From contig NZ_QGHD01000001.1 of assembly GCF_003148885.1 (NCBI RefSeq), positions 124,001 through 188,000 of the forward strand: a DNA stretch of 64,000 nt. The letters run 5' to 3'. Shown here piece after piece: positions 41,388 to 46,005 of the stretch. Position 1 is the stretch's first letter. Each line of letters begins with the position of its first letter. The notes below the pieces were generated by a model. The model saw nothing but the letters and a program-made list of their open reading frames with translations, had not been told where the DNA came from and ran no database searches. Position numbers and translations under genes: made by a program. The stretch is from Hallerella porci (GTDB lineage Bacteria; Fibrobacterota; Fibrobacteria; Fibrobacterales; Fibrobacteraceae).

Positions 41388-42258
41388 AATTTTTCATCAT
41401 TTCAATAAATTGCGGCTCGCCTTGATTCGGAAGCGGGGCGAAAATTTTAACGCTTACCAAAGTTTCGGGAGCGCCAAAAGCTTGCATCGTGCATTTGAAT
41501 AAATAATTGGTGCCCGCAACAACTTGCGAAGAAACGGCAAGTGGTTTTAAATTTAAGTAAGCGTAATCTTTTGTTGCAGCGATAAATGCTGCGGAATCAT
41601 CTTGCGTTAACGCGCGTTCTTCGGAATAAGCGCCGACTAAAATTTCTTCTTTTGCGCCAGCTCTGACTTTATCAATAAAATTTTTGATTTCGTCTGCGAC
41701 ATTGACCGCAGAATTATTTGCCCGCTTATGGGAAATGCCGAATGCAATTAAAACATTTGCATTCGTTTCAATTTCTTGAATTTCATGGGCGCTGGCTAAG
41801 CGTCCGCCGCTTCCGTAAGTGCAAAACGGAACAATTGCTTTTCCACTCAAATTATTGGAATCTAAGAATGTATAAATCGGCGGCGCAAATGTTCCAAACA
41901 TAATCGGATAGCCGATGTACAAAGTATCAAAAGATGTCAAATTCAATTTTGCATTTTGTAAAGTCGGATGCGTTTTCGATTCGCGTTCGCGTTTAACGGC
42001 TGCAATCGTGCTATCGTAAGTCGAAGGGTAAGGCGTTACCATTTTCAGTTCAAAAATTTTTGCACTTAATTGCTTTGAAAATTCTTCGGCGACTTTTTTC
42101 GTCGTGCCTGTTTGCGAATAATAAATTACCGCATTTTTTGAAGTCTCATTTTGCGAAATTTCTGCAGGTGAATTTTTTGCAGCATTTTCTTTTGCATTTT
42201 GTTCGTTGCATGCACAAAGTAAAATTGCAGAAAGAGCAAATCCTAAAAAACGTTTCAT
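41386..42258 (-). CDS. Flavodoxin-cystatin-like fusion lipoprotein
   Basis: 290 aa. Lipoprotein signal with lipobox LLCAC. Residues about 42-195 are a flavodoxin (VIYYSQTGTTKKVAEEF, then IGYPIMFGTFAPPIYTFL). Residues about 200-290 resemble a cystatin-like domain: a GAYSEERALTQDDSAAF start, the QVVAG signature in SSQVVAGTNYLFKC, and a beta-strand tail. Both parts exist alone in gut bacteria; the fusion is unusual. It would place an FMN-type electron carrier outside the inner membrane. Confidence 0.82.
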   Translation of the reverse strand: MKRFLGFALSAILLCACNEQNAKENAAKNSPAEISQNETSKNAVIYYSQTGTTKKVAEEFSKQLSAKIFELKMVTPYPSTYDSTIAAVKRERESKTHPTLQNAKLNLTSFDTLYIGYPIMFGTFAPPIYTFLDSNNLSGKAIVPFCTYGSGGRLASAHEIQEIETNANVLIAFGISHKRANNSAVNVADEIKNFIDKVRAGAKEEILVGAYSEERALTQDDSAAFIAATKDYAYLNLKPLAVSSQVVAGTNYLFKCTMQAFGAPETLVSVKIFAPLPNQGEPQFIEMMKN

Positions 42259-42403
42259 AAAAACCTCGAAAAGTTTTTGGAATGATAGAAAAAATTTGGG
42301 GTGGGGAATTTCTTATTGACTTAAAATAGAATCTAAGATTAATTATTTTGAAAATGAATTTTTGAACTTTGTTTTTATCTATATTCATAGAAAGAGGTAT
42401 AAA

Positions 42404-42637
42404 ATGCAAAATGAATTGACTTTAGAGAAAATTACTCCTGCACAAATGCTTGTGCTAAAATCTTTTGCAGGAACAAATAGTGAAGAAGAACTTCACGACT
42501 TGATGAAGGTCTTAAAAAAATTTTATGCAGAACGTCTTGAAAAAGAACTTGAAAAAATGTGGAATGAGAAAACGCTTGACCAAAAGTGTTTGGATAAATT
42601 AAACGACCAACATTTAAGAACTCCATATCATGGCTAA
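42404..42637 (+). CDS. Putative antitoxin of PIN toxin
   Basis: 77 aa from the ATG at 42404 (AAGAGG). All helical and charged (DLMKVLKKFYAERLEKELEKMW). It overlaps the PIN gene by 8 bases. The antitoxin role is inferred from this standard arrangement. Confidence 0.72.
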   Translation: MQNELTLEKITPAQMLVLKSFAGTNSEEELHDLMKVLKKFYAERLEKELEKMWNEKTLDQKCLDKLNDQHLRTPYHG

Positions 42638-43052
42638 GCAGTTGAAAATCGTAATTGATACAAATGTTTTAATTCAAATGCTAGGCCGATTTAGCAAGTA
42701 TCATTTTTTGTGGAAAAAATTTATTGCAGGTGAATATATTCTTTGTATTTCAAATGAAATTTTGCATGAATATGAAGAAATTTTAAATCAACATACCTCC
42801 CCAATTGTTTTGAATTTTTTCATGAAAATTATTGAGTTCTCAGATAACATCATTCAAAAAGATCCTTTTTTCAAAATGAATTTGATAAAAAAAGATCCAG
42901 ACGATAATAAATTTGTGGATGGCGCTTTTGCATCTCAAGCAGATTTTATCGTTACGAATGATAATCATTTTGCAGAACTTAAACAAATTGATTTTCCGAA
43001 AATAGAAATTAAAACAATCGATGAATTTGCAGAATTACTCGCTTCTAAATAA
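42630..43052 (+). CDS. PIN-domain toxin (COG1569-like)
   Basis: 140 aa. The acidic PIN residues are visible: VIDTNVLI (Asp10), ISNEILHEYEEIL, and KDPDDNKFVDGAFASQADFIVTNDNHF. PIN toxins are Mg-dependent RNases. It overlaps its partner upstream by 8 bases and opens the accessory islet; the recombinase starts 59 bases downstream. Confidence 0.85.
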   Translation: MAKQLKIVIDTNVLIQMLGRFSKYHFLWKKFIAGEYILCISNEILHEYEEILNQHTSPIVLNFFMKIIEFSDNIIQKDPFFKMNLIKKDPDDNKFVDGAFASQADFIVTNDNHFAELKQIDFPKIEIKTIDEFAELLASK

Positions 43053-43087
43053 ACTTTGAAATTGCGCGATTTTTCTAACTTCTAGTT

Positions 43088-43107
43088 CCTCACTATCAGC
43101 GGTGAGG
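43088..43107 (+). promoter_or_regulatory. Hairpin covering recombinase ribosome-binding site
   Basis: CCTCAC (43088-43093) pairs with GTGAGG (43102-43107), an 8-base loop between. The second arm contains the GAGG that serves the ATG at 43112, so folding would hide it. Translational control is inference. Confidence 0.5.
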
Positions 43108-43111
43108 TTTT

Positions 43112-43657
43112 ATGAATTTTGTGGATCCGATTAAGTCCAAAGAAAATGTTTCAAAAATTGAAAATTATTTAAAAGAAAAAAGCAAACGCAATCGTTTGAT
43201 TTTTGCGATGGGCGTTAATGTGGGGCTTCGCATTAGCGATATTTTAGCGCTCAATATTTGCGATGTTTATCAAAAAAATTTTCTTGAAATTCGCGAAAAA
43301 AAGACGAGCAAATTTAAACGGATTTTTCTGAATGAAAAATTGCGGAAACTCATTCGAGAATTTTTGAAAAATAAACCGAATTCTAACAAGCCTTTATTTG
43401 TGGGCAAAAAAGGCAAACGCTTAAATCGTTCGCAAGTGTATCGCTTTTTGAATGAAGCGTGCGATGCATTAAACATTTACGGAAATTTTGGCACGCACAC
43501 TCTCCGAAAAACTTTTGGTTATCATCACTATAAAAAATTCAAAAATATTGTGCTGCTGCAAAAAATTTTCAATCATTCCAGTCCTGCAATTTCGCTTTTA
43601 TACATCGGAATTGATCAAGAAGAAATCGATAATTCGTATAAAAATTTTGTGCTGTAA
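43112..43657 (+). CDS. Short tyrosine recombinase (catalytic domain only)
   Basis: 181 aa, lacking the usual N-terminal SAM-like DNA-binding domain. The full catalytic set is present: Arg40 (VGLRISD), a beta-hairpin Lys near 64-67, His129 and Arg132 (THTLRKTF), His155 (FNHSSP) and Tyr164 (SLLYIGID). Low GC, unlike the backbone. It ends 33 bases before a pair of inverted recombinase-type sites and is followed by the restriction-modification genes, so inversion of that segment is its most likely job. Island integration is the alternative. Confidence 0.88.
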   Translation: MNFVDPIKSKENVSKIENYLKEKSKRNRLIFAMGVNVGLRISDILALNICDVYQKNFLEIREKKTSKFKRIFLNEKLRKLIREFLKNKPNSNKPLFVGKKGKRLNRSQVYRFLNEACDALNIYGNFGTHTLRKTFGYHHYKKFKNIVLLQKIFNHSSPAISLLYIGIDQEEIDNSYKNFVL

Positions 43658-43690
43658 AAATTTTTAAGGTGAAAATTGGGGCATCTGTGA

Positions 43691-43715
43691 TGCATCATTT
43701 TCAAATTGTGGTGCA
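43691..43715 (+). other. Putative recombination site, left
   Basis: A 25-bp site: arms TGCATCATT and TGTGGTGCA around the 7-bp spacer TTCAAAT. The right arm and spacer (43701-43715, TCAAATTGTGGTGCA) recur as a perfect inverted copy in the right site. Confidence 0.72.
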
Positions 43716-43732
43716 CAAACTCTTGTAATACA

Positions 43733-43761
43733 ATTATAAAACTTTTTCATCAAAAAAACAA
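43733..43761 (-). promoter_or_regulatory. Promoter-like sequence inside putative invertible segment
   Basis: On the reverse strand TTGTTT and TATAAT are separated by 17 bases. As sequenced it points away from the methyltransferase, toward the recombinase 3' end. A weaker forward match (TTGTGG, 17 bases, TACAAT at 43706-43734) overlaps it. In AT-rich DNA such matches are common, so this is tentative. Confidence 0.4.
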
Positions 43762-43806
43762 CTGAAAAAATCAAAAATGATGCTTTGGGGAAGCCTTTCT
43801 GCAAAA

Positions 43807-43873
43807 GGATGAAGCGCCGTATGCACCACAATTTGATTGTGGTGCATGGGGATTCTTGGAAAGGGATGAAGCG
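43807..43873 (+). repeat. Direct repeat GGATGAAGCG
   Basis: The 10-bp word GGATGAAGCG occurs at 43807-43816 (inside the segment) and 43864-43873 (outside, upstream of the methyltransferase), 57 bases apart, in related contexts (AAAAGGATGAAGCG and AAAGGGATGAAGCG). Confidence 0.7.
43822..43846 (+). other. Putative recombination site, right
   Basis: A near-perfect palindromic 25-bp site: arms TGCACCACA and TGTGGTGCA around spacer ATTTGAT. In reverse orientation the spacer reads ATCAAAT, matching the left spacer (TTCAAAT) at 6 of 7 bases, so the two sites face each other. Confidence 0.75.
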
Positions 43874-43904
43874 GAATGCAAAATGAACTTTTTAGGAAAA
43901 TCTA

Positions 43905-45305
43905 ATGAATAAAGTAAAGAAACAAGGTCAAGTTTATACACCATTGTCTATTGTAAAACTAATGCTTGATAGTGTTGGTTATGAAGGTTGTAAAATTTTA
44001 AAGAAACATATAATTGATAATAGTTGCGGTGATGGAGCTTTTTTGACTGAGAGTGTATTCAGGTATTGTAATGAATATTTTCAATCAAAGAATTCTGATT
44101 TAAAGAAATTAAAAAAAGATTTGGAGTCTTATATCCATGGAATAGAAATTGATGAGATTGAATATAAAAAGTGTTTGGAAAACTTGAATGCCGTTGGTTT
44201 AAAATTTGGATTATCAAATGTAAAATGGAACGTGTTAAATAGAAGCGCATTAGAGGTTAATGTATTTAATCATCAAATGGATTATGTTGTCGGAAATCCT
44301 CCTTATGTGAGGGTTCACAATCTTGAACAAATGTATGAGTCTGTAAAAAAGTTTCAGTTCGCACAAGAGGGAATGACAGACCTTTATATTGTATTTTTTG
44401 AGATTTGTTTTGAACTGATGAATGATAGTGGGGTGATGTGCGTGATTACACCAAGTTCTTGGCTAAATAGCTTAGCAGGGACTAAATTAAGGCATTATAT
44501 TCTTGAAAATAAAAATTTAAAGAAGCTTATAGATTTAGAGCATTATCAAGCATTTAATGCAACTACATATACAATCATATCACAGTTTAATAAAAAAGAA
44601 AATGATTCAATTTTTTATTACACCTATGATGGAAAATTACATAAGAAAGAAAATTTGTCTTATGCAAATTTTGTAATTGATGGAAAATTTTATTTGGCTT
44701 CAAAAAAAGATTTAGACTTATTGCATAAAATAAGAAATTCAAATTTACCATGCCGTGTTCAAGTTAAAAATGGATTTGCCACTCTAGCTGATAAAATTTT
44801 TATTGGAAATTTTGAATTTGAAGATTGTGTAATTGATGTGATTAAAGCCTCATCTGGAAAATGGACTAAGTGCGTCTATCCTTATAATGCTAAAGGAAAA
44901 CCTTTTTCGGAGTTAGAATTTCAAAAATTTAAAAAGGCGTATTCATATTTATTATTGCATAAAGAGAACATTTCTTCTCACGGAGATGGAAGTGCTTGGT
45001 TTTTATTTGGGCGTTCTCAAGGAGTTCTTGATGTGAAGAAAAATAAAATCGCCATAAATAGTCTTATTAAAGATATTGATACAATTAAATTGAATGAAGT
45101 TCCTGCGGGAAAAGGCGTGTATAGCGGCTTATATATTTTAACAGAATTTTCTTTTGAAAAAATAAAGTCAATTTTACAAACAGAAGACTTTGTTGAATAC
45201 ATCTCTCTTTTAAAAAATTATAAATCAGGAGGATATTATACATATTCATCCAAAGATCTTGAAATGTATTTGAATTATAAACTAAGTGGGGAAAAGTATG
45301 AATAA
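43905..45305 (+). CDS. Adenine-N6 DNA methyltransferase (TaqI/Eco57I-like)
   Basis: 466 aa. Motif I is IIDNSCGDGAFL (near residues 37-48) and catalytic motif IV is VGNPPYVRV with Asn131-Tyr134. The C-terminal half is a TaqI-like specificity region. It methylates adenine in a recognition site that cannot be read from sequence. AGGAAAA serves as ribosome-binding site. It is AT-rich and overlaps the next gene by 8 bases, forming a restriction-modification pair. Confidence 0.9.
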   Translation: MNKVKKQGQVYTPLSIVKLMLDSVGYEGCKILKKHIIDNSCGDGAFLTESVFRYCNEYFQSKNSDLKKLKKDLESYIHGIEIDEIEYKKCLENLNAVGLKFGLSNVKWNVLNRSALEVNVFNHQMDYVVGNPPYVRVHNLEQMYESVKKFQFAQEGMTDLYIVFFEICFELMNDSGVMCVITPSSWLNSLAGTKLRHYILENKNLKKLIDLEHYQAFNATTYTIISQFNKKENDSIFYYTYDGKLHKKENLSYANFVIDGKFYLASKKDLDLLHKIRNSNLPCRVQVKNGFATLADKIFIGNFEFEDCVIDVIKASSGKWTKCVYPYNAKGKPFSELEFQKFKKAYSYLLLHKENISSHGDGSAWFLFGRSQGVLDVKKNKIAINSLIKDIDTIKLNEVPAGKGVYSGLYILTEFSFEKIKSILQTEDFVEYISLLKNYKSGGYYTYSSKDLEMYLNYKLSGEKYE

Positions 45306-46005
45306 TCAAGAATTCTTAGATATCGTTGCTCAATCTTTTGTGGTGTTTTTGGAAACAGGGTCTCGCAGCAATCAGAAATTAAAAATATTGCATGGAGCTA
45401 TTTCAAATGATTTTCAAAAAAGACTGGGTGTTTTATATAAAATAAAATCTCTTGGAATTGGGGATGGAAAAGAACAATTATTGAAAGGAAGATATTTTGA
45501 TAAAAAAGTAGATATTACCATTTATAAAAAAGATTTGCCGATTGCTGGAATTGGTGTTAAATTTGTGATGCAAAATTATTGCCAAAATGCAAATAATTAT
45601 TTTGAAAATATGCTTGGAGAAACGGCGAATATTAGGGCGAATAAGATACCGTATTTTCAAATCATTATCATCCCAGAAGAACTTCCTTATTTTAAAAAGG
45701 GTGGAGAATTTTCGAAATGGGAAAATGTTAATTCTCATCATATAGAAAAATATCTGCATTTATCGTCCGACAATATTGAATCTTTTTTTCATACTCCAAC
45801 AAAAACACTTTTATATTTGGTGGATTTTCCTAAAATGAAAAATAATCCGCATAATAGTAAGGAATACAATAATTTCTATTTGAATGAAAAAGATTTAAAT
45901 GTAAAAGAGGCTACAATTCAATATAGTCCGTTTGAATCAACTGTCATATATAATGATTATGAGCAATTTGTAGAAAAGGTAACCTATTATATTTTATCCA
46001 TTTAG
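45298..46005 (+). CDS. Putative type II restriction endonuclease
   Basis: 235 aa from the ATG at 45298, inside the methyltransferase end. YFDKKVDITIYK (Asp72) followed by GIGVKFV (Lys88) suggests a PD-(D/E)XK nuclease core, but the acidic residue expected before Lys is Gly86. NANNYFENMLGETANIR follows, with Glu103 or Glu108 as possible substitutes. Identification relies mainly on the coupled methyltransferase. Confidence 0.68.
   Translation: MNNQEFLDIVAQSFVVFLETGSRSNQKLKILHGAISNDFQKRLGVLYKIKSLGIGDGKEQLLKGRYFDKKVDITIYKKDLPIAGIGVKFVMQNYCQNANNYFENMLGETANIRANKIPYFQIIIIPEELPYFKKGGEFSKWENVNSHHIEKYLHLSSDNIESFFHTPTKTLLYLVDFPKMKNNPHNSKEYNNFYLNEKDLNVKEATIQYSPFESTVIYNDYEQFVEKVTYYILSI

Follow-up and report, generated by a model that had tools for sequence, protein, structure and literature searches.

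The question raised by this locus is whether the short intergenic stretch between a small tyrosine recombinase gene and a DNA methyltransferase gene in Hallerella porci is a genetic switch, that is, a promoter that the recombinase can turn around. The window, the whole stretch of 64,000 nucleotides that was analysed, contains the features collected in Table 1, and they are read here, with a probability of about 0.8, as a recombinase-driven invertible promoter of the phase-variation type.

Table 1. Features of the proposed switch and its neighbouring genes, in window coordinates.
Feature	Position	Strand	Remarks
Tyrosine recombinase, 181 aa, small, single-domain	43112..43657	+	PF00589 E=7.7e-25, residues 10-167
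Left recombination site (IRL)	43690..43715	+	outer arm GCATCATTTT degenerate, inner arm TTGTGGTGCA
Predicted invertible segment, ~130 bp	43704..43834	.	exchange predicted within the central 5-7 bp of each site, by analogy with L073/L074
TATAAT, probable -10 of the invertible promoter	43733..43738	-	18 bp inside the inner end of IRL, facing the recombinase
TTGTTT, weak -35-like hexamer	43756..43761	-	17 bp from TATAAT; just 3 of 6 consensus bases
Third half-site AAAATGATGC, in segment	43774..43783	+	exact inverted copy of the IRL outer arm
Right recombination site (IRR)	43821..43847	-	perfect palindrome ATGCACCACAATTTGATTGTGGTGCAT, 12-bp arms
Adenine-specific DNA methyltransferase, 466 aa	43905..45305	+	PF07669 Eco57I 1.7e-26; NPPY motif
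Companion gene, 234-239 aa	45301..46005	+	overlaps the methyltransferase stop

An earlier note on this DNA had described two 25-bp sites with 9-bp arms and a 7-bp spacer, and both lie where it placed them, at 43691-43715 (TGCATCATT TTCAAAT TGTGGTGCA) and 43822-43846 (TGCACCACA ATTTGAT TGTGGTGCA). The perfect 15-bp inverted repeat said to be shared by them (43701-43715 / 43822-43836) is likewise present, with 106 bp between the arms, and the spacers match at 6 of 7 bases when one is reversed, as claimed, versus 3 of 7 in direct comparison. According to the open reading frame coordinates, the recombinase stops 33 bases to the left of IRL and the methyltransferase begins 58 bases to the right of IRR, again in agreement with the note. 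The two sites can also be read as 27 bp long, with arms of 11 bp around a 5-bp centre, and the centres are then identical. The locus has the layout of an inverton, with a short segment between inverted repeats in the intergenic region that precedes a gene.

Such a pair is not readily produced by the base composition of the region: its inverted-repeat score is 15, while shuffles of the same region (n = 20) reach at most 10, and the palindrome with no more than 3 mismatches has 1 copy in the window and 0 in 100 shuffles. In the whole 2.85-Mb genome the site pattern at 0-1 mismatches returns just IRL and IRR; at 3 mismatches three more places appear genome-wide, all of them unpaired, with a count of 0 for the backward control. 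An exact ATTGTGGTGCA at C11:53099 was considered as a third site and rejected, as it has no palindrome partner. The arms themselves recur at homologous loci: those of IRL in L063 (ATGCATCATTTTGTATATTATGGTGCAT), and IRR-like arms both at the sites of L063 (ATGCACCA...TGGTGCAT) and next to the recombinase gene of the B. badius plasmid L035 (ATGCAACATAAT...ATTATGTTGCAT). A separate 17-bp direct repeat, 88% identical (43800-43816, TGCAAAAGGATGAAGCG; 43857-43873, TGGAAAGGGATGAAGCG), brackets the right site, one copy being within the predicted invertible segment and the other outside it.

As for the enzyme, the complete tyrosine recombinase catalytic domain proposed earlier is borne out by the PF00589 match and by R40, K64, H129, R132, H155, and Y164, which are invariant in an alignment of relatives (A1). 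The protein also matches the phrog_216 integrase family (E=2.2e-60), and it is probably the dedicated invertase of the switch. The NCBIfam models for the FimB/FimE-type subfamily (PRK09870 and PRK09871, tyrosine-type DNA invertase) match it weakly, with E about 1e-6 and scores of 26.9 and 25.9 bits, far under their cut-offs of 222 and 221, and the window recombinase thus falls outside that subfamily. Its nearest relatives, ~50-64% identical, come mostly from metagenome-assembled genomes of Gastranaerophilales, where they are multi-copy (1-10 per genome in the 22 genomes searched). Some near relatives are labelled Clostridium, Fusobacterium, or Bacteroidales, and these may be misbinned or mislabelled metagenome-assembled genomes. 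Bacillota plasmids and phages have many small relatives with 43-48% identity, and in some of the plasmids a single palindrome lies beside the recombinase gene, with arms resembling those of the window. Small recombinases of the family also lie a few genes before, or near, terminase genes in Streptococcus and Clostridioides phages (L037 and L038) and in plasmid L032.

An inverted-repeat pair just after the recombinase gene (score of at least 13 within 420 bp after the stop) was found in 33 of 89 family members, compared with 2 of 103 control regions from the same loci; the independent count is slightly under 33, since this number includes the window itself, repeat entries of one locus (e.g., L107 and L152), and a tRNA-like repeat (L134r). 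About two thirds of the family have no clear downstream pair. The genes that follow include glycosyltransferases, UDP-glucose dehydrogenase, a Chlamydia-PMP-repeat protein, radical-SAM genes, and large adhesin-like proteins without a Pfam match. The nearest switch homologues precede other genes than the switch of the window does, and no second locus of the family was found in which such a pair accompanies a methyltransferase like that of the window. In five loci (L058, L098, L111, L117, and L120) a second recombinase, 29-34% identical to the window's, lies ~0.5 kb or less downstream of the first, and some switches may have paired recombinases.

Inversion itself can be seen by comparing homologous loci. 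In L073 and L074, which belong to separate assemblies, the recombinase genes agree at 539 of 543 bases and a downstream stretch at 974 of 1000, and a 189-bp segment is reversed between two of three sites, being 97% identical once turned. The exchange point lies inside TTAGTAT, the 7-bp centre that the sites share, and the inner arms have traded places, which is the outcome that strand exchange by a tyrosine recombinase should leave. L136 and L045 have a common downstream flank and a reversed segment (z of 43 for the opposite orientation versus 10 for the same one), and the segment of L044 is also opposite to that of L045. L136, whose recombinase is 61-63% identical to the window's, is absent from the recombinase tree and was assigned to the window's clade through this identity and its match to L045. 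Because the compared loci come from species-level genomes, the L073/L074 and L045/L136 pairs show that inversion has occurred, not its rate. Downstream of the recombinase, L073 and L074 each have three sites, two direct and one inverted, and due to the direct pair deletion as well as inversion would be possible there.

In the ML tree, whose support values are rough since the bootstrap had not fully settled, the window recombinase falls within a 19-row clade (99/94) together with the switch loci L043, L045, L049, L050, and L063, while the plasmid and phage homologues form a separate clade (99/90), with which it does not group, and the loci with defence genes form another (100/95), also without it. 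Along with the same gene-site-segment-site-gene layout in many relatives and the natural pairs with opposite segments, this position in a clade that holds switches supports the invertible switch suggested by the earlier note. The defence-gene sister clade (L059, L061, L071, L072, L075, L077, L079, L080, L081, L092-L096, L100, L101, L103, and L105) mostly shows one upstream palindrome (ACAACAWAATGAAGTTGTGTTGTA or similar), and the recombinase is followed directly by varied genes, often of a restriction-modification or another defence-like kind, with a divergent gene of similar size (367-368 aa) on the left in many loci. These loci look like a defence-gene hot spot or a mobile defence cassette in Gastranaerophilales.

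Two readings based on mobility compete with the invertible promoter. If the enzyme belonged to an element derived from a plasmid or phage and acted in its resolution or mobility, the sites would represent a resolution or attachment site consisting of a core and an accessory part. Relatives of the recombinase do occur in 2058 plasmid records, some of which carry a single similar-armed palindrome beside the gene, and others lie near phage terminase genes. However, the plasmid and phage homologues occupy their own clade, inversion is seen at loci of the window recombinase's clade, and the window has two full inverted sites with near-identical centres, an arrangement that leads to inversion and not to excision; this origin is considered very unlikely. 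Even more improbable is a mobile defence cassette, in which the recombinase would insert a changing set of defence genes at one fixed location, the restriction-modification genes being no more than cargo. The sister-clade loci listed above other than L072, L077, and L080, mostly with one upstream palindrome and a varied set of following genes in which methyltransferase and defence-like ones are numerous, give this idea its appeal, as do the methyltransferases of L061 and L072 (29% identical to the window's) and the AT-rich composition of the window module, which is missing from relatives. The window recombinase, however, is outside that clade, its sites are a downstream pair, as in the switch loci, and the genome site search revealed no second flanking copy of the site for the operon.

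A further alternative is a former switch that is now locked by a decayed arm and a shortened centre, with the operon probably off or transcribed from a weak constitutive promoter. The outer arm of IRL is degenerate, both sites are 27 bp long versus mostly 28 bp in the clade, and a weak rightward promoter-like pair, TTGTGG-17-TACAAT, is present. In contrast, the recombinase and operon frames are intact, the two sites have equal length and identical inner arms, and unequal outer arms are also found in L063 and in the inverted L073/L074 pair. A locked state is judged unlikely, though less so than either form of mobility.

According to the earlier note, the segment also contains promoter-like sequence. 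A TATAAT stands at a position conserved in the clade, but sigma-70 motif scans perform no better than chance in the window segment and across the inverted-repeat loci. Among the clade loci listed, 7 of 8, the window included, have a -10 element facing the left site from 13-20 bp inside it, a pattern noticed after inspection; the test of -10 position over all inverted-repeat loci is at chance, and the signal is confined to the window's clade. Of 10 segments from the clade, 5 have an extended -10 element versus 0.18 expected; the TATAAT of the window is without the TG extension. In L136, flipped relative to L045, the corresponding -10 element faces the gene. The assembly contains the segment in a single orientation and, given the clade-conserved position of a TATAAT that faces the recombinase, this pattern, noticed after inspection, makes it likely that the methyltransferase is OFF in the orientation assembled.

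Half-sites and hairpins complete the anatomy of the segment. Of the 10 loci compared, 9 have within the segment a half-site similar to the third one of the window, versus 0.6 expected, although the pattern was chosen after inspection, and most loci of the set have another half-site just outside the left core site. Strong hairpins, which are probable terminators, are located inside the segments of L043, L045, L049, L054, and L057; RNA folding detected no unusual hairpin in the window segment.

The two genes to the right would be the targets of the switch. The claim of an adenine methyltransferase holds according to both the Eco57I family and the PADLOC type II methyltransferase model (MTase_II PDLC03315, 1.8e-140, residues 4-462), so that a DNA methyltransferase gene lies downstream of the switch, as in phase-variable restriction-modification systems. 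The companion gene probably encodes the restriction endonuclease, to judge from one stretch of its product (VDITIYKKDLPIAGIGVK, D...GVK), which has the D...xxK spacing of PD-(D/E)XK nucleases. Searches of Pfam, PADLOC, NCBIfam, PDB, plasmids, and viral contigs returned no relatives of the companion gene; it weakly matches phrog_21547 (E=2.8e-4), and a single-sequence AlphaFold model of the protein has a pLDDT of 31.

The G+C content is near 30% across ~42000-46000, compared with ~46% to the right, and a search of 60 other genomes of the phylum gave no close relative of the recombinase or of the methyltransferase. For these two reasons the recombinase-switch-methyltransferase module was probably acquired horizontally. 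Synteny with five same-genus genomes begins only at a hemN-like gene (46480), and nothing to the left of 46480 aligned. Directly left of the recombinase, at 42362-43052, a 91-aa gene is followed by a gene for a PIN-domain protein (TIGR00305, putative toxin-antitoxin toxin), and the two are probably a toxin-antitoxin pair within the same AT-rich island.

Put together, the 181-aa recombinase would bind the two inverted sites, exchange strands in their centres, and flip the segment of ~130 bp between them. The segment would hold one promoter near one end, which in the assembled form is predicted to point left to the recombinase, so that little or no expression of the methyltransferase and its companion gene is expected. 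Once the segment is inverted, the same promoter would face rightward, and transcription would run past the right site into the restriction-modification operon. As a result, DNA methylation and restriction would vary among the cells of a single clone. We infer that the switch is active in this strain and acts on the operon in this manner.

Comparable systems are known from other bacteria. Invertons that have a tyrosine or serine invertase close by have been surveyed in gut bacteria (PMC11892184), and that survey cites Mpi of Bacteroides. The locus resembles them in that an invertase gene adjoins inverted repeats enclosing a segment of promoter size, and surface genes are prominent among those controlled in its relatives. 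It differs in its sites, in an unstudied recombinase family, in the restriction-modification operon downstream, and in the phyla involved (a Fibrobacter-like host and Gastranaerophilales relatives). FimB/FimE and RecV of Clostridioides difficile (PMC5903667) are likewise tyrosine recombinases that invert a short promoter segment; by description rather than by sequence, RecV acts on several loci, whereas the window recombinase has one adjacent pair of sites in its genome. The small tyrosine recombinases of Bacillota plasmids and phages (phrog_216) belong to the same family and share similar-armed palindromes in some plasmids, but there is a single palindrome in the plasmids examined, and the family members of plasmids and phages have a separate place in the tree.

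Recombinase-driven inversion also varies restriction-modification within clonal populations, as the window switch is proposed to do, in the hsd inversions of Mycoplasma pulmonis (Dybvig and Yu 1994, cited in PMC11892184) and the hsdS inversions of S. pneumoniae (PMC4948785); phasevarions are reviewed in PMC11868660. In S. pneumoniae it is coding segments of type I specificity genes that invert, whereas in the window the inverting piece would be a short promoter segment, and its effect would be to turn a probable type II operon on or off. In the open-access literature, no paper was found that links Gastranaerophilales with phase variation or Fibrobacter with invertons, or that describes an invertible promoter in the phylum. 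Invertible promoters and phase-variable restriction-modification are known, and what is new is the host lineage and the unstudied recombinase family.

A broader picture can be offered tentatively, with the odds slightly against it. A distinct family of single-domain tyrosine invertases may be a main means of phase variation in Gastranaerophilales, each genome having several such switches, which would serve surface sugars, adhesin-like proteins, and other systems. The switches would share a fixed order of parts: an outer half-site, the left core site, the promoter, an inner half-site, in many cases a hairpin, and the right core site. The half-sites would be accessory elements that set direction or rate. 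One such switch would have moved into Fibrobacterota and would there control restriction-modification.

Gastranaerophilales are gut relatives of cyanobacteria, represented here mostly by metagenome-assembled genomes, and the locus points to a large, uncharacterised family of switches among them. The exact coordinates of the sites allow switching to be tested in existing read sets. If the segment flips, some cells in a population of this strain would have an active restriction-modification system and others would not, which would amount to bet-hedging phage defence and, possibly, an epigenetic switch.
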